64,000 nt of DNA from Janibacter sp. CX7 (GTDB taxonomy: Bacteria; Actinomycetota; Actinomycetes; Actinomycetales; Dermatophilaceae): contig NZ_CP101464.1 in the NCBI RefSeq assembly GCF_024362365.1, positions 1,240,001 to 1,304,000 on the forward strand, in the 5' to 3' direction. Below the pieces are notes generated by a model. The model made no database searches. It was given only the letters and a program-made list of their open reading frames with translations, and was not told the DNA's origin. Below are positions 26,358 through 38,496 of the stretch, piece by piece. Numbering within the stretch: position 1 is the first letter of the stretch; every line of letters begins with the position of its first letter. The position numbers and the translations under genes are program-made.

Positions 26358-27809
26358 GTGAGCACCCGGACCGACACCAGCCCGCACGGCAGCGAGAGGT
26401 TCAAGCGCTCGCTCGGGCGCATCGAGATCTTCTTCATCGGCTTCGGCGCGATGATCGGCTTCGGGTGGATCACCTCGACGAGCACGTGGCTCAACGACGC
26501 CGGCATGCTCGGTGCTGCGATCGCCTTCGTCATCGGTGGCGCGATCATGGGGCTCGTCGGCCTGGTCTACGCCGAGCTCGTCGCGGCGATGCCGCTCGCG
26601 GGTGGCGAGCACAACTACCTCATGCGCGGCTTCGGGCCGCGGCTGGCCTTCATCGGTTCGTGGGGCATCATCGGCGGCTACATCAGCGTCGCGGCCTTCG
26701 AGGCGGTGGCGATCCCGCGGACGGTCGCCTACATCTTCCCCGACGTCTACTCGATCCCGCTGTGGAGCGTCGCCGGCTCGCAGGTCTACCTCGTGTGGGC
26801 GCTCATCGGGACGATCACGAGCATCGTGCTGACGGCGCTGAACATCCGCGGCATCAAGGCGGCGAGCCTGCTGCAGAGCTCGGTGATCGTCTTCCTCGTC
26901 GTCATGGCCTTCGCCCTCGTCGGCCTCTCGCTCTTCGAGGGCGACACGAGCAATGCCGAGCCGCTCTTCACCGACAGCGCCGGGCTGCTCGCGGTCCTGG
27001 TCGTCGTCCCCTTCTTCTTCGTCGGCTTCGATGTCATCCCGCAGTCGGCCGAAGAGGTCAAGGTCCCGCCCCACAAGGTCGGCCGCCTCGTCATCGTCTC
27101 GGTCGCCATGGCGACGGCCTTCTACGTCGCCATCATCGTCACGACCGGTCTGGCGCTGCCGGCATCGGAGATGCAGGACTTCGACCTCGTCACCGCGGAG
27201 GCGATGGCGGCGCTGTCCGGTGAGTTCTGGGGCAACCTCGTGGTCGCTGGCGGGCTCGCCGGCCTGCTCACCTCGTGGAACGCCTTCCTCATCGGCGCCT
27301 CCCGACTCATGTGGGCCATGGCCAACTCGGGGATGCTGCCGGCGTGGTTTGCCAAGCTGCACCCGCAGCACAAGACCCCGGTCAACGCCCTGCTCTTCAT
27401 CGGCGCCATCTGCGCGGTCGCGCCCTTCTTCGGCGAGGTGATGATGGGCTGGCTCGTCGACTCGAGCTCGGTGTCGATCGTCATCACCTATCTGCTCGTG
27501 TCCGCCGTCTTCATCGTGCTGCGTCGGCGTGAGCCCGAGATGGACCGCCCGCTGCGAGTCGGTGGTCGCTCGGCGGCCGGTGGCATCGCGGTGGGCGTCG
27601 CCGCCGTCATCACCACCGCCTGCCTGCTCGCGCTCTACGTCCCCGGCATGCCCGCGATGCTCGACGTGCAGCCCTACGTGATCCTCGGCCTGTGGTGGCT
27701 GCTCGGTGTCGTCTTCCTCGTGCGGGTGCCCGGGGGAGTGGCGCCCGGTCAGGATGCTGAGGAGCGGCTGCTGGAGAGGCTGGCGGAGCGGCGGTCCTCC
27801 GCTTCCTGA
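26358..27809 (+). CDS. APC-superfamily amino-acid permease
   Basis: A 483-residue permease with about 12 transmembrane helices. The unwound first helix FIGFGAMIGFGWI is the APC substrate motif; YAELVAAMPLAGGEHNYLMRGFGP is the conserved helix 2-3 block, and FFFVGFDVIPQSAEEVKVPP is the helix 6 block. Substrate (amino acid or amine) is not evident. GTG 26358 follows AGGAGG at 8 bases and is preferred over upstream in-frame starts that overlap the divergent small gene's promoter region. It appears monocistronic. Confidence 0.88.
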   Translation: MSTRTDTSPHGSERFKRSLGRIEIFFIGFGAMIGFGWITSTSTWLNDAGMLGAAIAFVIGGAIMGLVGLVYAELVAAMPLAGGEHNYLMRGFGPRLAFIGSWGIIGGYISVAAFEAVAIPRTVAYIFPDVYSIPLWSVAGSQVYLVWALIGTITSIVLTALNIRGIKAASLLQSSVIVFLVVMAFALVGLSLFEGDTSNAEPLFTDSAGLLAVLVVVPFFFVGFDVIPQSAEEVKVPPHKVGRLVIVSVAMATAFYVAIIVTTGLALPASEMQDFDLVTAEAMAALSGEFWGNLVVAGGLAGLLTSWNAFLIGASRLMWAMANSGMLPAWFAKLHPQHKTPVNALLFIGAICAVAPFFGEVMMGWLVDSSSVSIVITYLLVSAVFIVLRRREPEMDRPLRVGGRSAAGGIAVGVAAVITTACLLALYVPGMPAMLDVQPYVILGLWWLLGVVFLVRVPGGVAPGQDAEERLLERLAERRSSAS

Positions 27810-27835
27810 GGCGAAGGGGGTTGCTCGCGCCGTGG

Positions 27836-28077
27836 TCAGGCCCTGAGCGTGGCGACGTCGTAGGCGTCGATCTGCGGGTCGCTCGTCACCACGATCGCTT
27901 CCTCGCAGAGGGCCTGTGCGACCAGGAGCCTGTCGAAGGGGTCGCGGTGGTGCCAGCGCTCAGCAGTGGTTCGTTGCCTGGGTCGCTGATGAGTTCCGTG
28001 GCCTCGGGCGAGATGGAGTCGCGGTCGCCGAGGAGCAGGCGGACCACGACATTGGTGTCGAGCAGATATCGCGTCAT
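27836..28077 (-). pseudogene. vapC: VapC-like PIN toxin with an internal deletion
   Basis: The frame from ATG 28077 gives a normal PIN start (MTRYLLDTNVVVRLLLGDRD) with the first catalytic Asp, and breaks after EPLLSAG near 27960. A second frame then supplies the PIN C-terminus (HHRDPFDRLLVAQALCEEA, VVTSDPQIDAYD) to the stop at 27836. The middle 50 or so residues with the central acidic site are missing and the two parts are out of frame. The toxin is dead. The start overlaps the antitoxin stop (ATGA), as in intact modules. Confidence 0.75.
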
Positions 28078-28291
28078 GAGTAGTCGGCGAAGTCGGCCAC
28101 GGGCGCGTCGAAGTCGTCGGGCAAGGAGCCGGCGAGGTCGCCCCAGATCATGCGCTGCTCGGTGACCAAGGGCGCAGGGCTGAGATCGCGACCCGGTGGG
28201 CGCCCCGCCGGATGACGATCGTCTCGCCAGCCTCCACCCTCCGCAGCAGTCGGGAGAGGTGGGTCTTGGCCTCGTGCACCGTGACCTCCAT
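28074..28291 (-). pseudogene. vapB: Phd/YefM-type antitoxin with a frameshift
   Basis: Starts MEVTVHEAKTHLSRLLRRVE, a clear Phd/YefM N-terminus (DNA-binding part), but about residue 36 the frame runs to an early TGA at 28148. The shifted frame contains the expected toxin-neutralising tail (LVTEQRMIWGDLAGSLPDDF) ending at TGA 28074-28076, overlapping the toxin ATG. One lost base near 28185 explains it. With the toxin also broken, the module has decayed. Confidence 0.7.
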
Positions 28292-28323
28292 ACCGTCAAC
28301 GGTAAGTTGGTCAATTTGGTTGG

Positions 28324-29454
28324 TTAACGTGTCTCGACGCGCTCGCGAAGGGCATCGAGTGCCCTCTTCTCGATCTGGCGGATCCGCTCGCGGGTGACGC
28401 CGAAGCGCTTGCCGATCTCGTCGAGGGTCATCGGCGGCTGACCGGTGAGCCCGTGCCGCAGCTGCAGCACGGTGACCGCGCGAGTGCCGAGGCCAGGCAG
28501 CTCGACCAGGCTCTCGAGCAGGTCGTGGACGTCGGCCTCGTCGTCGAGCCGGTCGATGCACTGCTCGATCGGGTCGAGGCCCGGGTCGTCGTCGACGACG
28601 TCGAGCTCTGCGCCGACCTGGTCGAGGCTCAGGCACGGCCGCAGATGGGTCTGGGCCTTCGCGATGTCGTCACTCGTCGCGTCGAGACCGAGCCGGCCGG
28701 GGTCGGCGAGGGCCTCCTGCCAGGTGAGTCCCTCCCTTCGCCTTGGGGTGTCGATGCGACGCGCGGACTCGAGGGCATGGACCGGGATGCGGACCACGCG
28801 GGCCTCGTCATCGATGGCGCGGCTGATGCTCTGCTTGATCCACCACGTGGCGTAGGTGGAGAACTTGTGCCCAAGCGTGTGGTCGAACTTGTCGACCGCG
28901 CGCATGAGGCCGATGAGGCCGGCCTGCTGGACGTCGTCGAACTGCATGCCTTGACCCACGCGCGGCAGCGCCTTGCGCGCGATGCTCGTGACGAGCCGGA
29001 CGTTGGCGAGGATCATCCGCTCGCGGGCTTCGTCGGCGGTGCGCACGACGTGCTCGAGGCCGCGACGCTCGGTGCGGCGCAGCTCGACACCGGAGTCGAG
29101 GCGCTGCTGCGCGAAGGCGCCGGCCTCGATGCGGCGGGCGAGGACGACCTCCTGCTCCGCGGTCAGCAGGGGAGTGCGGTGGGCGCGCCGTCCGAAGGCG
29201 GACTGGCCGACCGCTCCGGAGCTCGTCCACTCGTCGTCGCTGTGGTCAAGGACCCACGGGGTGGTGTCCTCGGTGGTCTGCGCTTCGCGGGCCGCGAGGA
29301 GCTCCGCGAGGTGTGCCTCGAGCGCGGAGATCTCCGCGTCGATGTCGATGTGCGCCTCACGCAGGTTGAGGCGCGAGGCCGCCTGCGGCCGAAGCCTCGA
29401 AACCGCCCCCACCCCCACCGGCTGCGTCGCCGGCCTCATCACCATGTCGGTCAT
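28324..29454 (-). CDS. RNA polymerase sigma-70 factor, group 2 (SigB/HrdB-like)
   Basis: A 376-residue sigma factor. Region 1.2 is LTAEQEVVLARRIEAG; region 2 contains the core-binding and -10-recognition blocks DVQQAGLIGLMRAVDKFD and HKFSTYATWWIKQSISRAI; region 3 has RIPVHALESARR; region 4.2 ends with the -35 helix GVTRERIRQIEKRALDALR. It lacks the long acidic region 1.1 of primary sigma factors, so an alternative, stress or stationary-phase factor is likely. ATG 29454 is the first Met of a reasonable N-terminus; the 90 N-terminal residues before region 1.2 are poorly conserved and include a Gly/Ala hairpin-coding segment. No anti-sigma gene lies beside it. Confidence 0.9.
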   Translation of the reverse strand: MTDMVMRPATQPVGVGAVSRLRPQAASRLNLREAHIDIDAEISALEAHLAELLAAREAQTTEDTTPWVLDHSDDEWTSSGAVGQSAFGRRAHRTPLLTAEQEVVLARRIEAGAFAQQRLDSGVELRRTERRGLEHVVRTADEARERMILANVRLVTSIARKALPRVGQGMQFDDVQQAGLIGLMRAVDKFDHTLGHKFSTYATWWIKQSISRAIDDEARVVRIPVHALESARRIDTPRRREGLTWQEALADPGRLGLDATSDDIAKAQTHLRPCLSLDQVGAELDVVDDDPGLDPIEQCIDRLDDEADVHDLLESLVELPGLGTRAVTVLQLRHGLTGQPPMTLDEIGKRFGVTRERIRQIEKRALDALRERVETR

Positions 29455-29704
29455 GAGAACAGTCAAGCGGTGACCACCGACATTCAGCCTCTGAGTGGGT
29501 CCGCGGGCGGGCCGAACAACCGACCGGGACACGTGGTGATCCCTGTACTGCTGAGTGGTCGCCCGCGGGCTCGGTGTCTGGTCGAGCGGTGTCCCTGTTC
29601 GGGAACTTGAAGCCAGCCCGTTGAGCCGATCGAGGGGGATTGCTGCACGGATAGGTGACATCTGATCTGTGGCGTCGAGGGACGCTGCTGGAAGGATGGA
29701 CACC

Positions 29705-29998
29705 GTGCCCAAGACCTATCCCAAAGAGTTCCGTGACGACGTGGTCCGGGTGGCCAGGAGTCGTCAGCCGGGTTAGCAGTTGAAGCAGATCGCTGCTGAC
29801 TTCGGGATCAGCGAGTCGTGCCTGACGAACTGGTTCAAGCGCGCTGACGTCGAGGACGGGAACGCGACAGCCATCACGAGCGAGCAGAACGCTGACCATC
29901 GGGATGCGAAGAGACGCATCCGTTTGCTGGAGCAGGAGAACGAGGTCCTGCGTCGAGCGGCGGCATACCTGTCGCAGGCGAACCTGCCGGGAAAATGA
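29705..29998 (+). pseudogene. IS3-family transposase OrfA with internal stop
   Basis: Encodes the OrfA helix-turn-helix protein of IS3-type elements: MPKTYPKEFRDDVVRVA, then after an in-frame TAG at 29774-29776, LKQIAADFGISESCLTNWF and the leucine-zipper region RLLEQENEVLRRAAAYLSQ ending LPGK. The stop codon separates the first helix from the rest. The OrfB start (ATGAGAGAGCTG, 29995) stops after four codons, and no DDE catalytic domain follows. The insertion sequence is dead and has lost most of OrfB. It borders the low-GC defence operon. Confidence 0.8.
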
Positions 29999-30292
29999 GA
30001 GAGCTGTGAGAGATGAACTCGAAGGATCACGCGGTGGCCGCGCCTACGTCCACGACCGAGACGAACTCAGGCACCGCGCTACACCACTATCGGGGACTCA
30101 ACTGAACGGGCGAAGGCCAGGACCGGCGACGATCTGGACCAGGCTCCGGGGGCCGTCTTCGAGTCTGGGTTAGGGAAGGGAAGCTTGATGGACTCATCGT
30201 TACCAGCAGGACCTCGAGGAGGGCCCCGACCCGGTCCGCGCAATAAAGTGAAGAGTTTGAGGGACCGTCAATAACGAGCGGGTGCAGGTATT
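29999..30292. other. Junction between dead IS3 element and the RT/HEPN operon
   Basis: This stretch holds scrambled remains of IS3 OrfB and the flank of the low-GC island. The composition changes from GC-rich to AT-richer near 30170. No intact gene, inverted repeat or terminator could be assigned; a run AATAAAGTG near 30240 is only noted. Confidence 0.4.
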
Positions 30293-30865
30293 TCAAAGAT
30301 CGACTATATCGTGGCTTGATTGACGCACCTCAGAGTCGAGTCGTAGGACGAAATCCGTGCACGCTGTGAGGCATTGCTTGAGTGAGTCACCGGAAAGTGA
30401 TAACCGGCCATCGACCACGACTACTCCAAGGCTCGCGCCCTTTAGCGCTTCGCTCGGCTTCTGCTTGCGAGTGAGACTGCCCCGGCCATGGGCAATCCCA
30501 TTTCGGACCCAGACGGCGCAGTCGAACAGTTGCCACTCGGGCCACTGCTGAATTGACGTGTGCAGTCCCCAATTCAGAGTGTCCCTTCGTGAATCCCAGC
30601 TTTGGTATGCGTTTTTACGATGCCTCTTAACGAGCTCTTTCGCCACGCCTTGGGCCGTGGTCTCCGCAGCCTCTAGGAGGAACTCGACAATTTTGTCTGA
30701 ATAGAACTCGACGTAACTGACTAGACTCGTCCAGGTACCCGCTAATACTAGGTTGCGGGTGTGTGAATCGGCCGCATTTCGGGTCAACGTCTCCGCGCAG
30801 CCGCCCTCCGAGTGTCTCAGTAGGAGCAGGGTCTCTTCGGTTGCTCCGAGGATCGGCTGGATCAT
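30293..30865 (-). CDS. HEPN-domain protein partnered with a reverse transcriptase
   Basis: A 190-residue mostly helical protein with the HEPN ribonuclease signature R-x4-H: VRNGIAHGRG (Arg121, Asn122, His126). A helix-rich N-terminal half (WTSLVSYVEFYSDKIVEFLLEAA) fits the HEPN four-helix bundle. HEPN proteins are typically RNases in abortive-infection and toxin systems. ATG 30865 overlaps the stop of the reverse-transcriptase gene (ATGA), so the two are translated together. Base composition is much lower in GC than the flanks, indicating acquisition. In AbiA a similar HEPN domain is fused to the C-terminus of an RT; here it is a separate chain. Its activity as a phage-triggered RNase is inferred. 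Confidence 0.7.
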   Translation of the reverse strand: MIQPILGATEETLLLLRHSEGGCAETLTRNAADSHTRNLVLAGTWTSLVSYVEFYSDKIVEFLLEAAETTAQGVAKELVKRHRKNAYQSWDSRRDTLNWGLHTSIQQWPEWQLFDCAVWVRNGIAHGRGSLTRKQKPSEALKGASLGVVVVDGRLSLSGDSLKQCLTACTDFVLRLDSEVRQSSHDIVDL

Positions 30866-32373
30866 GAGTTCGTGACGATCCGTCGTAGGAGTGGTTCATC
30901 GAAGGCCTTTGCGCCTTTGGTTGGATCGTCTACGTGAGACATGGCCGCGGCGTAAAAGATACTTAGTGCGGTCGGCGCTGAGTTGTTAAAGTTCATGATT
31001 TGGGGAGCGTCAACCTCATGATGGCGTGCGAGGACCCAGACCCCATGGGCGCTCAAAATTGCATTCGATCGACTTTCCGTCTCATGACGGATCCATTCAA
31101 TGCGTGAGGTTCGATTTCGCTTGAGGGTCAGGCATCCGGTCGCGTCGTAGGCATGGATAATCCAAGTCTTTTGCCAGTCGTTCAGGGCCGCTTTATGGGC
31201 CAGCTCATCCAAGACGGCCGCAATTCTGGTGCGAGACCTTTTGGCTTGACCAAGTTGAATGAGGTATCGCATTGCGCTGGGCGTGACGGGAGCCATGAAC
31301 CGAACAATTTCTGCCACGGAGTCGAGTGCGCGAAGGTCTTTGCTCTTAGCGAGAGAAGATAGGGCTCTTCTTGCCATCCTAACTTCGGCGGCTCCCGCGT
31401 CCCTCAGGGAGAGCTGGGCGTCGCCGTCCGGTGTGGGGGAAAATCTCTCGAGATACTCGGCGGCGCTGTCTGGATCTTGATCGAAATCGTCAGTGTAGTC
31501 GCCGACGATGTCCTCAGCGTCTTCCTTTTGTATTGGCCCACCGGGACTCTCTTCGAGGTCCATGGAATCGAGGTAATAGTTGGCATACGAAGGTGTTGTT
31601 GTCTTGAACTCGTTAAGTGTTAGCCCCATTGATCGAAGGGCTTGGTCTAGATCGTCGATGGCATCCATCGTATGCGTGTAACTGGTGCATGCGATTCGAA
31701 AGTCGTCACTGAATCTCCAAACGTGGTGACCGCGTCGAATCATGGAGCGCTCTACTGCGCTGATATAAACCTCTGCCAGGATATCTGATGGAGTGGAGGC
31801 TTGGGGGAGACCCGTCGAGCGCCCTTGTAGTTCACCCAGAAATTGCATTAGGTATGTAATTGCTTCATAGTCGCCTCCGATCAGCGTCAACTGATCCCTG
31901 AGGAGTTCGTGGTCCACGTGCCTATAGAAGGCAACGACGTCGGATTTGACGACATACTTGAACTTTGTGCTAAATGGAAGAAAGAATTTCGGCACATTCG
32001 GTTGCATTTCAGCCTCGGCGGCCAAGATCGGCTCCCGTACGAATTTGAGCCAGTCGCTGGGCCCTGAGTTCGGGGTGGAGGAACCTGCGGTCGCTGCGTC
32101 GACCAGCGCGGCATAGATTATGCGCTCATGGACACCCAAGACTGGGATGGGTCTTAGGCCGTGCCGGGACTTGCGTGCGGAAATTTGCGCAGGGGCATGA
32201 ATGGGCATGCCTTGTGACAATTGTGCCTGAATTGATTGGGAGACAATGTGGGCGTGCCCTTTGACTCGCCAGTTGGGCTCTTCGGGCAGGAGGCTTCGTC
32301 CTAGTGTGTCCTTTTCAAGCGCAGCCTGGTGGAGCTTCAAGCGCGAAATTAGGGAGGTGGGCATAGGTTGCAT
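30862..32373 (-). CDS. Abi-type reverse transcriptase (defence RT)
   Basis: A 503-residue RT. Residues 60-260 hold the palm and fingers: RPIPVLGVHERIIYAAL (72-90), the first catalytic Asp in KSDVVAFY (Asp145), GLPQASTPSDILAE (188-201), the active site RFSDDFRIA (Asp223/224) and LTLNEFKT (251-258). The C-terminal 240 residues are helical and unrecognised, as in the Abi/UG group where this part is HEAT-like. There is no maturase, endonuclease or intron RNA signature. GC content is far below the flanks. ATG 32373 has AGGT about 7 bases upstream; 32364 is an alternative. It is coupled to the HEPN gene. Antiphage function by RT-dependent nucleic-acid synthesis is inferred. Confidence 0.85.
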   Translation of the reverse strand: MQPMPTSLISRLKLHQAALEKDTLGRSLLPEEPNWRVKGHAHIVSQSIQAQLSQGMPIHAPAQISARKSRHGLRPIPVLGVHERIIYAALVDAATAGSSTPNSGPSDWLKFVREPILAAEAEMQPNVPKFFLPFSTKFKYVVKSDVVAFYRHVDHELLRDQLTLIGGDYEAITYLMQFLGELQGRSTGLPQASTPSDILAEVYISAVERSMIRRGHHVWRFSDDFRIACTSYTHTMDAIDDLDQALRSMGLTLNEFKTTTPSYANYYLDSMDLEESPGGPIQKEDAEDIVGDYTDDFDQDPDSAAEYLERFSPTPDGDAQLSLRDAGAAEVRMARRALSSLAKSKDLRALDSVAEIVRFMAPVTPSAMRYLIQLGQAKRSRTRIAAVLDELAHKAALNDWQKTWIIHAYDATGCLTLKRNRTSRIEWIRHETESRSNAILSAHGVWVLARHHEVDAPQIMNFNNSAPTALSIFYAAAMSHVDDPTKGAKAFDEPLLRRIVTNS

Positions 32374-32428
32374 CGACTACCTGCCTGTCGCGAGCGACGG
32401 ATATTTCTCAATTGGCTGTCCTCAGGGC

Positions 32429-32868
32429 TTAGTATGTGCCGCCAAGGTATGTTAAGAGGGTTTTTTGGAAGTCCGGGTTCGCGAAGAACTGGGAGAAGAG
32501 TGTCCCGTTCTTGTCGTGTCGGTCCAGCATGAGCTCCTTGATCCAAGCTGCGTGTCGTTGTGCAGGAGGCTCGGGAACGTGAGTGGGGAGAGGTTGTAGA
32601 AGCGGTGCCCCGCCGCTCGCTTGAGCAACTCGTCGATGGCCCCGTCGGCAGGCTTGCCGATCGTCTTGCGGTCGGCCTTGAGCGCTCCGAGCTTGACGGC
32701 CTCGTCCAGGACTGCGTCCGCGGTGGGAGCGAGAACCGCGTCCATGCGCCGGAGGACGAGCAGGGGGAGCATGACCGACCCGTACTCGTGCTGCTTGAAG
32801 GTGCCGCGCAACCTGTCGGCGACCTTCCACACGAACGCGACCTTGTCCGCGAAGCCAACTGGCGCCAT
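32429..32868 (-). pseudogene. hsdM: Truncated type I restriction-modification M subunit
   Basis: From ATG 32868 the frame gives a typical HsdM N-terminus (GFADKVAFVWKVADRLRG, QHEYGSVMLPLLVLRRMDAV, AAGHRFYNLSPLTF) for about 105 residues. Then similarity stops near 32555; a different frame continues as WIKELMLDRHDKNGTLFSQF to a stop at 32429, an origin I cannot assign. The helical recognition domain, SAM-binding and NPPY motifs are all missing, so no methylase is made. A deletion probably happened when the RT/HEPN operon arrived next to it. No hsdS or hsdR is present in the window. Confidence 0.75.
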
Positions 32869-32972
32869 CTCTTCCCTTCGTTGGTGTGGTTGGGGTGAGC
32901 CTATGGCCACGACGAACCGCGGGTGCGGTAGGGCGCGGGCTTATGTCGCGGAAGATGCGGCACAGTGGCTGC

Positions 32973-33812
32973 ATGAGTCAGTTGAGCCCTGCCGGAGACC
33001 TGACGCTCGGCCATGTCATGGACGCCGCTGGCCTCGCCGCGGAGGACGTCGTCGTCATCCGGCACACCTACAACGCAGGTGGACTGGTCGAGGGGCAGAC
33101 CCCGCCCGAGGTCGTGCTGCGATACACGCAGCGACAGAGTGTCTCGTGGAGCGTTGGGGCGTCGGCCAAGACATGGTTGTGCTTCTTTGCCGACGGCCAG
33201 CGGAGGTCGCGGTACTACGGAGCCTTCACCAACCGCGGTGAGGTCGCCGAGCACCGGACTAGCGAGCTCAAGTACTTCGACCTGGAGGCCACGGACGTGT
33301 TGTCGTCCCTTCGGGGCCGCTTGGTCATCCAGTGGTCTCTCGATGCGGTGAACTGGTCCAAGAAGGGCTCGTTGGCGAGTTCCTTCCCGGTCGTGGAGAT
33401 CGCTGACCGGCAAGAGGAGGTGTTTCCGGGCTTCGAGCGCCTGAGCTTGCCGTACTGGAAGCTCGTCGAGGTGATGACTGAGTCGCGCTACGCCAACTGG
33501 CGATCAGCCCTCGGATCCGTGCAAGGCATCTACGTCATCGCCGACACCACCAACGGCAAGCTCTACGTGGGGAAGGCGGACGGGCGTGAGCGCATCCTGG
33601 GGCGCTGGCGGCAATACGCGGCCGACGGGCATGGCGGCAACGTTGCCCTGAAGGAGGTCTCGGACTCGGCGCCCGACCACCGGCACAACTTCGTCTTCAG
33701 CGTGCTGCGTGTCTACGACCCGTCGGTCCCGCTGAAGGTCGTAAACGAGGGGGAGTCGTACTTCAAGGCCGCGCTGATGAGTAGGACCCCGCTTGGATAC
33801 AACAAGAACTGA
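32973..33812 (+). CDS. GIY-YIG nuclease family protein
   Basis: A 279-residue protein whose C-terminal 95 residues are a GIY-YIG nuclease: QGIYVIAD (GIY 185-187), LYVGKADG (YVG 198-200), the catalytic Arg in GRWRQYA (211), the metal Glu in NEGESYFK (about 261) and the terminal Asn of GYNKN. The N-terminal 170 residues are a separate domain (WLCFFADGQRRSRYYGAF, SELKYFDLEA) that I do not recognise and that may bind the target. ATG 32973 is chosen because upstream residues are Arg/Gly-rich and lie before a plausible promoter. It stands divergently from the hsdM remnant in a defence-type neighbourhood. Confidence 0.8.
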   Translation: MSQLSPAGDLTLGHVMDAAGLAAEDVVVIRHTYNAGGLVEGQTPPEVVLRYTQRQSVSWSVGASAKTWLCFFADGQRRSRYYGAFTNRGEVAEHRTSELKYFDLEATDVLSSLRGRLVIQWSLDAVNWSKKGSLASSFPVVEIADRQEEVFPGFERLSLPYWKLVEVMTESRYANWRSALGSVQGIYVIADTTNGKLYVGKADGRERILGRWRQYAADGHGGNVALKEVSDSAPDHRHNFVFSVLRVYDPSVPLKVVNEGESYFKAALMSRTPLGYNKN

Positions 33813-33824
33813 AGCTTGCATCGG

Positions 33825-34373
33825 CTAGCTACGACGTGTGCCACGACCCCCGATGTAGCGAGAGCGAAATCGAGTGGCCAAGACTTCCTGGCGCTGCTTG
33901 TTCGCGAGGAGGCCGGACACGAAGCCTACGGCGATGGCGGAGATCGCGGCGCCCATCGAATTCCACAGCAAGACGCTCGAACCCATGACGACGAGCATCC
34001 ATCCGATGAATGAAGGCGGACCCTTCGACAACAGGTCCTGGTCGTCGGCGGACAGGGTCTCGTCGATGCGAATGGGGAAGATGCGTTGGGGGAAGGCGGC
34101 GGTGAGGATCAGGAGGCGTAGGGCCAAGAGGGCCGAGATGGCAGTCCCTCCGAGAAACAGGATGACGACTGCCGGAGACTGGGGCGCGAAGGCCAAGGCG
34201 ATGAGGGTGAACACCAGAGCAAGGAACTGGTACGTGGGGTCCTTCGCCAGGTCGGACCAGCCTTCGTCGCTCTCGAGCACCTGGCGCAGCGCGTTGAGAG
34301 GTGTGAGCGCGGTCGACATCTGGTGAGCGCCTCCGGCGATCACCATGAGTGTCCCGATCGTCGTGCTGTCCAT
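33825..34373 (-). CDS. Four-helix membrane protein of unknown function
   Basis: A 182-residue protein with hydrophobic segments at about 48-64, 68-92, 122-137 and 142-157, a short N-terminal soluble part (MSTALTPLNALRQVLESDEG) and a basic tail ending GGRGTRRS. No family is recognised. It is convergent with the GIY-YIG gene (12-base gap) and divergent from another membrane protein gene about 175 bases away. GC content is somewhat lower than the genome average, suggesting that it belongs to the accessory region. Confidence 0.6.
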   Translation of the reverse strand: MDSTTIGTLMVIAGGAHQMSTALTPLNALRQVLESDEGWSDLAKDPTYQFLALVFTLIALAFAPQSPAVVILFLGGTAISALLALRLLILTAAFPQRIFPIRIDETLSADDQDLLSKGPPSFIGWMLVVMGSSVLLWNSMGAAISAIAVGFVSGLLANKQRQEVLATRFRSRYIGGRGTRRS

Positions 34374-34549
34374 GCGCCCTCCGCCGTCCAGTCGAATAGC
34401 CGTCTTCAGTCCCGCGCGTCTCTTCGAGCGAAGGTACTGGGAGCCGGTGACAGGGCCGGTCGTGGCAGTCCCAGCGGGGTGGGTCGAAGTTGGTTGTCAC
34501 ACCTGGTTGATATGCCTACGGCTTAAGCAGCAGTGACTCCAGAGGGGCG

Positions 34550-35719
34550 ATGGCGATGCAGCATTCGGCACGTGACGACACCAACCGTGACGGCGCTCTC
34601 GGTCGCGCCCAAGTGCGGTTCCGAGGGGCTGAAGGTTGGCGCGACAGTGAGCTCCGACAGCAACGGGAGCGTCGGCGTCGGATCGCCGGGCGGAAGTGGC
34701 TTGTTCGCGCCGTTGTGCCGGTGCTGCTCGTCTTGGTCTCGGGCCTCGTGGTTCTGGTGATAGGACTCGGAGCTGCAGTCCTGGATAGGGGAGGTGGCGA
34801 GTCAGTCCGCCCCGAACCTATGGAGAAGGGGTGGGAGCTGCTCAGGGCCTCACGCGGGATCGCCGTCGGTGACGAGCTATTGCTGCTCGCCTTCTTCGGG
34901 GCTCCGACGTTTGCCGTGCTCAAGCCGTTTCCGGCCGGCGAGGACCTGACGCACTTTCAGGGCGTACACACAGTGGAGACGCGTGGCGATGCGGAGAACC
35001 GCCTCGGAATGCTCATCTGTGCTCTCCTCTTTGGGTCATTCTCGTCCCTCTGGGTGGCCGTCCCCCCGGACGATCAGTGGCTGCCGCACGTCAGCGTTCT
35101 GGCGCTGTTCATGGCGTGGATGACCGCCTTTGCTGCACTGCAACTGGTCATGCCCCGGATGTCTTCGCGTGATGCCATGCGGTGGACCGACTCTCACATC
35201 GCGCTCCTCCGAGCGCGCCTCGAGGTCTTGAAGGTCCGTGCCTCCCAGCGCCAAGGACACGACCTCACGCCGATGTCTTGGCGGTCGTGGTGGAGACTCG
35301 GCCTGCTGCCTGGCGCGGCAGCGGTCCTGGGAGGTCTGGTTGTATCGGCGGCGACAGCCGATCAAGCTGGCGTCATGTGGTCGCTGGGGCTTGGCGCGAC
35401 GCTCATGGTCTGTGCCCCTGCCATGACGTATGTCGCCGGTCAGGTGGGGTCGTCGGGATGGGCGGCGCGCTCCCTGACGTGCCTCAGTGCGACCACCGCC
35501 GCCCTGATGTTGGCCTGGTGGATCGTGTCCGCGTGGCTTCTCTGGGACGGGCGGTTGCTCCCGCTGGCACTGACCCTCGGGGGCCTGGGAGGGGTGTGGG
35601 TAGCCGTTCGAGAGCATCGGGGTCAGCACATGCGAGTTGAGGCCGCGCTCATACGTGCGGAACTCAAGCAATTGTCCCGGTTGAGAGCGCGGCACGTGCA
35701 GGGGCGAATGGTGATCTGA
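34550..35719 (+). CDS. Polytopic membrane protein of unknown function
   Basis: A 389-residue protein: a basic N-terminus of about 50 residues (RQQRERRRRIAGRKW), then hydrophobic segments near 53-78, 105-118, 153-170, 178-200, 246-266, 272-292, 305-325 and 330-347, and a basic helical tail. No motif allowed a family assignment. ATG 34550 follows GAGGGG closely; ATG 34556 is a second choice. A strong hairpin follows the stop codon. Together with the divergent four-helix protein it could form a membrane pair, but nothing in the sequence proves this. Confidence 0.6.
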   Translation: MAMQHSARDDTNRDGALGRAQVRFRGAEGWRDSELRQQRERRRRIAGRKWLVRAVVPVLLVLVSGLVVLVIGLGAAVLDRGGGESVRPEPMEKGWELLRASRGIAVGDELLLLAFFGAPTFAVLKPFPAGEDLTHFQGVHTVETRGDAENRLGMLICALLFGSFSSLWVAVPPDDQWLPHVSVLALFMAWMTAFAALQLVMPRMSSRDAMRWTDSHIALLRARLEVLKVRASQRQGHDLTPMSWRSWWRLGLLPGAAAVLGGLVVSAATADQAGVMWSLGLGATLMVCAPAMTYVAGQVGSSGWAARSLTCLSATTAALMLAWWIVSAWLLWDGRLLPLALTLGGLGGVWVAVREHRGQHMRVEAALIRAELKQLSRLRARHVQGRMVI

Positions 35720-35722
35720 CGA

Positions 35723-35744
35723 CGCGACGGTCCTGACCGTCGCG
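35723..35744. terminator. Hairpin after the membrane protein gene
   Basis: CGCGACGGT at 35723-35731 pairs perfectly with ACCGTCGCG at 35736-35744 around a CCTG loop, 3 bases after the stop codon at 35719. The position and 9-bp GC stem fit an intrinsic terminator lacking a T-run. Confidence 0.55.
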
Positions 35745-35747
35745 GGC

Positions 35748-35796
35748 CCTTCGAGACGGCCCCTTCGAGACGGCTCGTTCCTCGCCTCCTCAGGGA
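35748..35796 (-). repeat. Dispersed hairpin element, with a duplicated end
   Basis: On the plus strand this reads CCCTTCGAGACGG twice and ends CTCCTCAGGGA, the inverted form of the element family seen also at 39809, 39859, 43164, 49274, 53482, 54986 and 56181. The central stem here (GGCTCG/CTCGCC) is imperfect, so this copy looks degenerate. Confidence 0.6.
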
Positions 35797-35843
35797 CGAA
35801 GGGGTGGGCCTCCCCGGGGATCGGTGTGTGGGAGGTTGGGGCA

Positions 35844-36467
35844 ATGGACGTCCTGCCGATGTTTCCCCTCGGAACGGTGCTGCTGCCCGGGCAGCCCCTG
35901 CCGCTGCAGGTCTTCGAGCCGCGCTACCTGACGATGCTGCGCGACGTCGCGGCCGGCGCCGGGGGCTTCGGCGTGGTGCTCATCGAGCGGGGCTTCGAGG
36001 TCGGTGGGGGAGACCAGCGGTTCGCCATCGGGTGCGTGGCGAGCATCGAGCAGGTCCGGCCGATGCCCGGTGGTCGCGTGGGACTGCTGGCGCGAGGACA
36101 GGAGCGCATCGAGGTCGTCGACTGGCTGTCCGACGATCCCTACCCGCGAGCGGAGGTGCGGCGCCTGCCGGACCTGACGTGAGCCGACGATGACGCCCCG
36201 CGTCTGGCCGAGACCGAGCGGACCGTCCGGCGAGCCCTGACGGTGATGAGCGGGTACCGATCGCCGGCGCTGCCCGCCGACATCGAGCTGGCCGACGACC
36301 CGGTCACGCGCAGCTGGCAGCTGGCGTGGGTCGCCCCGCTCGGCGCCCTCGACCAGTTGACCCTCCTGCGGTCAGCATCGGTCAGCGAGCTCCTGCACAC
36401 CACCGCGCGCCTCACGAGCGAAGCCCTCGAGCTGCTGCCGCTCCAGTCACCCGACAAGTCCGACTGA
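35844..36467 (+). pseudogene. LON-substrate-binding-domain protein, nonsense mutation (copy 1)
   Basis: Encodes a stand-alone Lon N-terminal domain protein: MDVLPMFPLGTVLLPGQPLP, FEPRYLTMLRDV, GFGVVLIERGFEVGGGDQRF, then helical C-terminal ADIELADDPVTRSWQLAW. The frame is open for 208 codons except for one TGA at 36180-36182, exactly where the paralogue at 39927 has TGG (Trp). A single G-to-A change therefore cuts the protein to 112 residues and removes the helical half. The upstream 20 bases (GTGTGGGAGGTTGGGGC) match those before copy 2. Such proteins are thought to be Lon-like substrate adaptors, but no function is proven. Confidence 0.75.
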
Positions 36468-36502
36468 CGGCCTCCGGGCGGCGTCGGCAGTCGCGCCCGC
36501 CC

Positions 36503-37990
36503 TCAGTCCGCCTCGACGAAGAGCGGCCTCGACGCCTTGCCCGAGGCCAGCACCTCACCCATCGTGCGGTACTCGCCCCGCTCGAAGACCTCCGCGAGCT
36601 TCGCCTGGTCGACGAGGTGCGCCGACTGCAGCTCACCACCGGCGAACTGCAGCAGCGACCCGACCGGCAGCCCGAGGTAGGGGCCGAAGGTGCGGTCGCA
36701 TGCTTGCAGCTCGCCCGCGTCGATGTTGCGCAGCGCGCGCTCCTCGTCGCTCTGCGCCGACGGCAAGACGATCGACCAGCCGGACCGGCGGGTGCCATCG
36801 GTCAGGGCCTGCGCGCCGGGGTCGAGCTCGAAGCGCTCCATGACGAACGCGGCGGGCTGCCCCAGGACGATCGCGTCGAGGGCAGCCGACTGGATCGCGA
36901 TGGTCTCGGTGGCCCTGACCGGTGCCGCGTCCACGCCTGCCTGGCGAGCCTTCTGCAACTGCTCGACCTGCCCGATCAGCGCGCCGGTGAGGTCGTCGGT
37001 CGTCCGCTCCCGATAGGCCTCGGGAGAGGAGAAGTCCGGGGTCGTGACGAGGAGGACGCCCCCTTCGTCCGTGGCCTCGAGCGTGTACGGCGCATACGAC
37101 ATCTGCAGCCGGGCGCCCGGCTGCAGCGGACCGGCCGCGCCGGCGGCGAAGGCCATGAGGACGCTGCCGGCCAGCGGCGCGAGCTGCGGGTGGGTCCGCG
37201 CGCGCAGGGTCACGCCGTCGACGACCTCTTCGATCGTCTCGGTGGTGGGTGCCGCCGGGCTCTGCTCGCCGATGGGAGCACCCGCGCCGCGACCGTCGTC
37301 GAGCAGCTGCCGGTCCGCAGCGGTGACGGTGCCGTCTGTGGCCCGCGTGGCCCAGGCACCGAGGAACCGGCCGTCGGCGACCCGCGCCACCGTCCCCGTC
37401 GGCAGCGCGAGCAACGGCACGAGGTAGGCGGCCGACTGCACGAGCAGCCCGGCGAGGATCTCAACCTCCTTGTTGCGCAGGAAGGACTTCTCGGCCGTGC
37501 GCACCAGCCAGCCGGAGTCGTCCTCCGACGTCGACGGGCGCCGCACGAGGACGAGCTCGTCGGTCCGACCCTTTTCGACGACCGTCAGAGCCGCCTTGGT
37601 GAAGGTCACGCCCATCGCCATGTCGATCGGCGCGCCATCGACTTCCGCGCGGCTGAGCGTGTCCGCCTGGGCGGCCTCGATCCACAGCGCGAGCGTCAGG
37701 TCGTCGGTCGTGGCGTCGACGAAGTCTTCCGCCGCGTAGTCCGGCGCCGTGATCGCGAACTGCGTCTCCCGGTCCTGCCGCAGCTGCCAGAAGCCGAAGC
37801 CCACGATCGTCCGCAGCCCGTCCTCCGTGTTGCCCGCCTCGTGGTGGCGGCGGTAGCGGTCGACGACCGGCCGGGCGAAGGGAGCCACCTCGGTCGCGCA
37901 GCGCAGCGTCGCCACGGTGCCACCACCGAGGTCGACGGCAGGCTGCGGCTCGGGCTGGGTCGAAGGGAGTGGGAGCGGGAAGGTCGTCAT
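36503..37990 (-). CDS. Large soluble protein of unknown function
   Basis: A 495-residue protein without signal or membrane helices. It is rich in mixed alpha/beta blocks (IVGFGFWQLRQDRETQFAI, FTKAALTVVEKGRTDELVLV, GSVLMAFAAGAAGPLQPGA, MGEVLASGKASRPLFVEAD) and contains no motif I recognise. Length, codon use and a clean frame support a real gene. ATG 37990 or 37999 are equally possible starts; neither has a strong ribosome site. It is convergent with the LON pseudogene and divergent from a small Cys-containing protein. Confidence 0.6.
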   Translation of the reverse strand: MTTFPLPLPSTQPEPQPAVDLGGGTVATLRCATEVAPFARPVVDRYRRHHEAGNTEDGLRTIVGFGFWQLRQDRETQFAITAPDYAAEDFVDATTDDLTLALWIEAAQADTLSRAEVDGAPIDMAMGVTFTKAALTVVEKGRTDELVLVRRPSTSEDDSGWLVRTAEKSFLRNKEVEILAGLLVQSAAYLVPLLALPTGTVARVADGRFLGAWATRATDGTVTAADRQLLDDGRGAGAPIGEQSPAAPTTETIEEVVDGVTLRARTHPQLAPLAGSVLMAFAAGAAGPLQPGARLQMSYAPYTLEATDEGGVLLVTTPDFSSPEAYRERTTDDLTGALIGQVEQLQKARQAGVDAAPVRATETIAIQSAALDAIVLGQPAAFVMERFELDPGAQALTDGTRRSGWSIVLPSAQSDEERALRNIDAGELQACDRTFGPYLGLPVGSLLQFAGGELQSAHLVDQAKLAEVFERGEYRTMGEVLASGKASRPLFVEAD

Positions 37991-38049
37991 GGGCGACATA
38001 CTTTCGGCCCCGGCGACCCGCGGACAGGGGGAGCGCTCCCCGCATGTTG

Positions 38050-38074
38050 GCTGAGGTGCGACGGAGGAGCCTCG
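38050..38074 (-). repeat. 25-bp repeat, copy 2
   Basis: Identical over 25 bases to 7331-7355, where it lies in the carH linker. Here it is intergenic, between two divergent hypothetical genes. The GAGG/CCTC ends could pair. Confidence 0.6.
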
Positions 38075-38147
38075 CAGCAGTCCGACGCCCGAGCGTTGTC
38101 GGTGCCCGCACCTAGTGTTGGCCTCGTCGGCGGAGGACGAAGGGGGA

Positions 38148-38492
38148 GTGACCTTGGGTGGGATGACGGACGGCCTGCGGAGCGGTCTGGGCACGGGCGA
38201 GCTGGCCGCGCTGGCGCAGCGGGTTCTGGACGAGTGGCGTCGCGGGTCAGCCACTCGGGCCGAGCAGATGGAGGTCTGCGACTGCTGTGGCGACTGGGTC
38301 GACGTCGAGCACCCCAGGGATCGGGAGATGGCCGACCAGTGGCGTGAGGCGACGGCCGAGCGCGCCCGCATGGAGTCCCTGCGCTCCGGCTCCGGCCCCG
38401 GGTGGCCGGGGCCGGAGATCGTGCCCGACGATGCGGTGACCGGCTGGACTGGGTCCCGCGCCCCCGAGTGGTGCCTCGACGAGCTGCTCTAG
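38148..38492 (+). CDS. Small hypothetical protein with CxCC motif
   Basis: A 114-residue soluble protein. The middle carries MEVCDCCGDWVDVEH, a cluster of three Cys that could bind metal, in a helical context (LAALAQRVLDEWRRG, QWREATAERARMESL). No family recognised. The start is GTG 38148 or ATG 38163; a G-rich ribosome site is present before each and I cannot choose firmly. The 3' end is 4 bases from the convergent metallo-hydrolase gene. Confidence 0.5.
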   Translation: MTLGGMTDGLRSGLGTGELAALAQRVLDEWRRGSATRAEQMEVCDCCGDWVDVEHPRDREMADQWREATAERARMESLRSGSGPGWPGPEIVPDDAVTGWTGSRAPEWCLDELL

Positions 38493-38496
38493 GACG

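Follow-up and report, generated by a model that had tools for sequence, protein, structure and literature searches.

A UG22-class reverse transcriptase paired with a separate HEPN protein in Janibacter sp. CX7: a candidate anti-phage operon

The classes of UG and Abi reverse transcriptases (RTs) were reportedly defined by Mestre et al. 2022, and Wang et al. 2026 is said to be the study of DRT4. Abi polymerases and DRT4 are reported to produce DNA by template-independent, protein-primed synthesis (PMC11077055, PMC13314766), and PMC13213688 presents both DRT4 (UG15) and DRT6, a homologue of it, as systems of a single gene. In AbiA, a HEPN domain with an R-x6-H motif is fused to the RT. The priming tyrosines of this protein, Y298 and Y303, sit in a flexible loop (residues 290-310) joining the RT and helical domains, and polymerase activity is lost in the Y298/Y303 double mutant (PMC11077055). 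In DRT1, protein-primed DNA adducts first switch on an enzymatic effector and later lock it, and immunity needs the active sites of both the RT and the effector (PMC13275509). Further background on the UG and Abi classes is provided by PMC8934634, PMC13174585, PMC12596737, PMC12489045, PMC12632851, PMC10952713 and PMC13092281.

Here we describe a two-gene operon located in a window of 64,000 nucleotides of the Janibacter sp. CX7 genome (contig NZ_CP101464.1, positions 1,240,001 to 1,304,000; all coordinates below are those of the window, unless another locus is named). Like AbiA, the operon encodes an RT core with a helical domain, a HEPN protein as the second module and a tyrosine in the RT-helical linker. 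Unlike AbiA, its HEPN is the product of a separate gene and carries an R-x4-H motif, and the RT aligns to AbiA residues 0-478 only. The presence of a HEPN partner gene also distinguishes the operon from DRT4 and DRT6, for which PMC13213688 mentions no such partner. With DRT1, a class 3 RT-nitrilase, the operon would share its logic, in which protein-primed DNA is coupled to an enzymatic effector that abortive infection requires (PMC13275509), but the DRT1 effector is a fused nitrilase, its primer is a serine and its RT belongs to another class. A predicted HEPN RNase-toxin fold beside a nucleotide-polymerising partner recalls the HEPN/MNT (HepT/MntA) type VII systems; in this case, however, the partner is a UG22 RT and not an MNT protein, and the tyrosine of the RX4HXY motif is missing.

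A sequence-only reading of this DNA had presented the operon as an undescribed system and as a split version of AbiA. The first of these claims has to be withdrawn: both proteins match dedicated models of PADLOC-DB 2.0.0 (2023), RT_UG22 and one named RTasHEPN, so the family and the pairing were catalogued earlier, as a candidate anti-phage system. These models are the best ones for the two window proteins, the same gene order and coupling are found in 18 of 21 loci, and nothing structural differs from the catalogued pair. The second claim is misleading, since the RT is of the UG22 class and the HEPN motif is R-x4-H on a separate chain, as opposed to the fused R-x6-H domain of AbiA; a split AbiA is ruled out by the RT profile, the HEPN motif spacing and the separate genes. 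The literature searched yielded no functional study of the family and no paper naming RTasHEPN, or UG22 in connection with RTs; among the papers listed, none dealt with an RT whose HEPN effector is a chain of its own.

The reverse transcriptase and its HEPN partner

The first gene of the operon encodes the UG22-class RT (503 aa; 30862..32373, minus strand; PADLOC RT_UG22, 7.6e-114), and the second encodes the 190-aa HEPN partner RTasHEPN (30293..30865, minus strand; PADLOC RTasHEPN, 6.7e-36). ORF analysis revealed that the stop codon of the RT gene and the start codon of the HEPN gene share an ATGA sequence, i.e. a 4-nt overlap, as had been noticed in the sequence-only reading. Both genes are real and intact, and their identity as a UG22 RT and a HEPN protein is practically certain. 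The GC content of the operon (0.551) is lower than that of the whole window (0.702), which agrees with the earlier remark on its composition, and among 620 windows, each 2,081 bp long, only one has a value as low as this. The low GC content therefore suggests that the operon is a recent acquisition.

The best PADLOC-DB 2.0.0 model for the RT, RT_UG22 (379 bits), was followed by Drt8 (117 bits) and UG21 (109 bits), and the protein is also matched by Pfam RVT_1 (6.7e-11). The PADLOC AbiA model was absent from the 25 best models for the window RT, and for a relative of this protein (locus L020) it scored 27 bits compared with 419 bits for UG22. AbiA was also missing from the 10 sequence matches of the RT profile at 0.01. 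Two other kinds of RT were considered and rejected. The NCBIfam model of group II intron RTs scored 60.6 bits (cutoff 300), which places the protein outside this group, and no intron family of Rfam matched at gathering score within positions 29000-34500. Only one retron model, St85, matched the RT (10.9 bits, cutoff 235), and no Rfam match at gathering score was obtained in a scan that covers Rfam families alone and leaves room for retron RNAs outside Rfam.

The RFSDD active site of an Abi-type RT, recognized earlier from the letters alone, is present. Residue counts were made on a set of 17 RTs rather than 18 (the frame-broken RT of L021 was left out) and on alignment A3, which has 24 rows, 12 of them in common with this set. 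The catalytic aspartate D145 of the KSDVVAFY block (31939..31941, minus strand) shows no variation in either the 17 RTs or A3. D223 and D224 of the RFSDDFR block (31702..31707, minus strand) are both invariant in 17 of the 17 RTs; A3 has no exception for D223 and a single one for D224, an Ala in row P0013.

The AlphaFold model of the RT (mean pLDDT 86.2) supports the C-terminal helical half that had been proposed. According to the secondary structure of the model, residues 328-501 (30871..31392, minus strand) form an alpha-helical, Abi-like domain, which aligns to DRT6, DRT4, AbiK and Abi-P2. In structure comparison the model resembles DRT6, DRT4, AbiK and AbiA across the core and the helical half, and the protein thus appears to display the class 1 UG/Abi trait of an RT followed by a helical (HEAT-like, alphaRep) domain. 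Within the linker between these parts, residues 277-282 and 288-294 were modelled with low confidence. The latter stretch contains Y293 (31495..31497, minus strand), which is a Tyr in every one of the 24 rows of A3 and in all 17 HEPN-paired RTs, most of the surrounding linker being variable. Because of its linker position, as in AbiA (Y298/Y303), and its conservation, Y293 is the best candidate for the DNA-priming residue of the RT. The aligned position is not Tyr in any of three UG22 RTs that lack HEPN, in a gappy stretch where the alignment is uncertain.

The RNase signature of the HEPN superfamily comprises an Rx4-6H motif, a polar residue after the R and an upstream acid (PMC3710099). All of these are found in the second protein of the operon, namely the putative catalytic motif R121-N122-x3-H126 (30488..30505, minus strand), whose R, N and H are each conserved in all 49 rows examined, and E53 (30707..30709, minus strand), which is Glu in 48 rows and Asp in the remaining one. 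Invariant residues in the 49 rows are W90, R121, N122, H126, G127 and G129; T132 is Thr in 48 rows and Ser in the other, Q135 is conserved in 47, and residue 128 is Tyr in none, i.e. the acceptor Tyr of RX4HXY is missing. The rows include three repeats (P0015, P0029 and P0043, which duplicate L011, L021 and L017, respectively), and L021 was kept for these counts despite its frame-broken RT. Judged from its structure model (pLDDT 90.6), the protein appears to have the HEPN fold: the best rows of the second structure aligner were mostly HEPN proteins, and the top structural rows were HepT/MntA entries, HepT-type toxins.

The window HEPN is divergent, showing 19-29% identity to the other 17 partners. 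The 190-aa protein matched no Pfam family, a protein search with the single sequence confirmed none of 176 candidates, a search of PDB sequences with the HEPN profile yielded nothing relevant, and the 31 proteins found with a 13-row HEPN profile contain no Pfam domain. The separate 190-residue HEPN with R-x4-H claimed at the outset is confirmed by the RTasHEPN match.

No conserved non-coding sequence was found in the 800 nt upstream between L016 and L020 (RTs 67% identical) or between L044 and L045 (62%), a comparison of two close pairs that a fast-evolving RNA could escape. For L044 and L045 the sole upstream match is the RT start itself, and the upstream similarities between other loci are short (13-41 nt) and located at unrelated positions. 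Positions 29000-34500 contain no Rfam family at gathering score; the sole match (E 0.9), far below this score, is due to chance. This is consistent with the earlier statement that neither an intron RNA nor a retron RNA is seen at the locus.

Conservation and spread of the gene pair

With the RT alignment as query, the genome_contigs collection (84,980 species) yielded 36 pattern matches. Twelve loci were confirmed, each of them from Actinomycetota according to its record title. These 12 loci, five others obtained in the order, phylum and plasmid searches (L031, L037, L038, L044 and L045) and the window constitute 18 pairs among 21 RT loci, from which L040, a 240-aa RT fragment, was excluded. 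UG22 is the best PADLOC model for all 21 RTs (that of L021 as two pieces). The RTasHEPN gene lies directly downstream of the RT gene, on the same strand, in 18 of the 21 loci, so the pair is conserved elsewhere. All 18 HEPN proteins match the RTasHEPN model (13/13 and 5/5), and each is a separate chain with R-x4-H encoded by its own ORF, which bears out the earlier distinction from the fused AbiA. The gap between the two genes, with start codons chosen by the analyst, ranges from -19 to +4 nt, and an overlap of 4 nt is found in 11 of 18 pairs. RT and HEPN distances are correlated (Mantel r 0.72, 17 loci; 0 of 20,000 permutations, highest permuted value 0.54), and shared species history contributes to this correlation.

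The remaining three loci, L039, L073 and L074 (UG22 best, 252-312 bits), have no HEPN within the 10-12 kb fetched. Directly upstream of the UG22 RT genes of L039 (7385-7888, minus strand) and L073 (4488-5000, plus strand) there are, in place of a HEPN gene, genes encoding small proteins that are unrelated to HEPN but homologous to each other (43% identity over 121 columns). One of them shows a weak match, below cutoff, to the Tse2 ADP-ribosyltransferase toxin (E 0.0043), and the second has no Pfam match. These sequences hint at partner or toxin swapping on a UG22 RT platform.

The RT gave 27 pattern matches in viral contigs, none of which was confirmed, and no match in 50,697 phage records. 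Among plasmids, 109 records match the RT; in two, both from Rhodococcus (L044 and L045), the match spans 80% of the query or more, and each of these two carries a HEPN gene. The UG22 pairs of these two plasmids are 61-62% identical, yet a 451-nt downstream stretch, which in each record overlaps a gene annotated on the reverse strand, shows 92% nucleotide identity.

At E <= 1e-20, and counting the own genome, the UG22 profile matched 8 genomes out of 396 in the order and 31 out of 396 in the phylum. Most of the phylum rows are weak (73-118 bits) and cover the RT core only; their fetched stretches, several of them short, showed no HEPN match, and a few rows gave no locus. The RTasHEPN profile matched 7 of 396 genomes of the phylum, again counting the own genome, and a UG22 pair is present in two of them (own and G369). 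The other five gave weaker matches, and a UG22-like RT was absent from the sequence fetched for them. The first single-protein search with the RT had yielded 2 matches out of 58, i.e. its own genome and, weakly, one more.

Genomic setting

Upstream of the operon there is a 5′ remnant of a type I restriction-modification (R-M) gene, hsdM (32452..32907, minus strand; HsdM_N 3.7e-16), of which positions 32546-32907 share 77.7% nucleotide identity with the 5′ end region of hsdM in another genome of the genus (G006), where the gene is intact. The neighbouring GIY-YIG nuclease of the sequence-only reading is, more exactly, an intact UzuA-type GIY-YIG defence protein encoded divergently, outside the operon (32886..33812, plus strand; PADLOC UzuA, 9.2e-86). 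The operon is also bounded by an IS3-type transposase remnant (29690..29998, plus strand), identified by nucleotide identity to stretches of two same-genus genomes, 73% (29690-29996) to G006 and 85% (29636-29998) to G004; the ORFs beside the matching stretches were read by eye as IS3-type transposases. The truncated hsdM noted previously is thus confirmed, and the dead IS3 element is supported. A dead VapBC is supported in part: a match to the Phd/YefM antitoxin was obtained below cutoff (2.1e-5), and the toxin ORF has no Pfam match at 0.01.

Flanking segments 27444-29482 (97% identity) and 35849-38493 (89-90%) are common to G006, where they lie approx. 27 kb apart and enclose an intact type I hsdM, hsdS, hsdR cassette, as well as a gene matching the PADLOC Orf5, type IV restriction and HEC-06 models. 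In G004, a HEC-06/Orf5-type gene is located a few kb from the right flank. Positions 29500-35800 are therefore likely to represent a defence hotspot, bordered on one side by a sigma-factor gene and on the other by an Imm33-like gene, and the earlier notion of a defence island accords with UzuA beside the operon, the hsdM remnant and the R-M cassette at the same site in G006. The neighbours of other UG22 pairs include genes that match the pPIWI-RE, type I R-M, DrmD, LmuB, SduA and SoFic models, as judged from 25 of 101 matching families in a scan of 109 of 118 listed ORFs without a control set.

The two genes bordering the hotspot have features of their own. The gene at 28324-29712 (minus strand) encodes an extra sigma-70 family protein with long matches (61-92%) in three of 15 other same-genus genomes, two of which have a TAG inside the gene; the other 12 genomes match at 40-42%. 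The gene at 36503-38371 (minus strand) encodes a 622-aa protein with an Imm33-like domain (1.6e-7), whose same-genus matches are split or contain stop codons in several genomes.

Proposed working and competing explanations

On the basis of the Abi, DRT4 and DRT1 precedents and the operon anatomy, a working in which RT, DNA and HEPN are poised together is judged the most likely. The RT would prime itself at the linker residue Y293 and build untemplated DNA that remains covalently attached to it. RT, DNA and HEPN would then form a poised assembly whose state controls HEPN, a putative metal-independent RNase acting via R121, N122, H126 and E53. Disturbance by a phage of the RT, of the DNA it makes or of the pool of nucleotides would cause HEPN to be released or activated, and the active HEPN would cut RNA, stopping the cell or the phage. 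Abortive defence in which a protein-primed, untemplated RT governs a HEPN RNase encoded by its own gene is the best explanation of the operon and, taken as a whole, has about an even chance of being correct. Its parts deserve different degrees of trust. The operon probably acts in phage defence, and HEPN is more likely than not an active RNase effector; protein-primed untemplated synthesis by the RT is only slightly less probable, and DNA-gated control of HEPN is a tentative element. The three of 21 UG22 RTs that stand without HEPN count against the proposal, as does the inactivity of the AbiA HEPN on four RNAs tried in vitro (PMC11077055).

The AbiA result may also be taken as a guide to the operon itself. 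HEPN would then be a catalytically idle subunit that dimerises, binds nucleic acid and assembles the RT, and the source of defence would be untemplated DNA, or the sequestration of recombination or SSB proteins of the phage, rather than the cutting of RNA. The AbiA HEPN dimerises the protein and is required for polymerase activity (PMC11077055), and the RT model resembles AbiA, AbiK and DRT4. However, the conservation of R, N and H in 49 of 49 rows and of E53 in 48 exceeds the needs of a scaffold (though the AbiA HEPN keeps its R-x6-H too), the best structural rows are HepT-type toxins, and all 18 pairs encode HEPN as a chain of its own, which makes this explanation doubtful. Just as doubtful is the idea that the operon works as an RNA-free, two-gene analogue of a retron, in which the assembly with Y293-linked untemplated DNA is the antitoxin that silences HEPN, phage attack on the DNA frees the toxin, and UG22 RTs may swap toxins.

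The HepT/MntA entries at the top of the structural rows point to yet another possibility, a toxin-antitoxin pair of the HEPN/MNT kind in which the RT adds nucleotides onto HEPN, using it as a primer, and thereby silences it. MntA silences HepT with three AMPs on a tyrosine adjacent to the active site (PMC7641770), and the near-invariant T132 follows the catalytic His of the window HEPN. Nevertheless, the acceptor Tyr is missing, the RT has its own conserved linker Tyr, and an RT modifying a HEPN was not found in the literature searched, at the level of listings; we consider this explanation improbable.

It is still less probable that the RT is an RNA-templated, class-2-like DRT with an unrecognised ncRNA, which HEPN would trim or degrade as part of the cycle. 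A short, fast-evolving or distant RNA could be missed, and scattered upstream similarities of 13-45 nt do occur, but these are weak, the two closest pairs have no conserved upstream sequence beyond the RT start, Rfam gave no gathering-score match and the RT model has an Abi-type helical half. Decay of the operon as a mere passenger in the island, devoid of present function like the broken hsdM, IS and TA genes around it, is very improbable in view of its full-length ORFs, intact catalytic residues and maintained coupling.

A poised RT-DNA-HEPN assembly thus remains our preferred explanation, and a phage-defence function of the operon is plausible. The operon bears on how the untemplated DNA made by Abi and DRT polymerases becomes defence. 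In the UG22 family the polymerase and the predicted RNase toxin are separate, co-conserved proteins, and in the fused AbiA they are not separable in the same way. Since the polymerase and HEPN are on separate chains, their roles should be separable by single-gene or point mutants, for which D223/D224 and Y293 of the RT and R121/H126 and E53 of HEPN are the residues to test.
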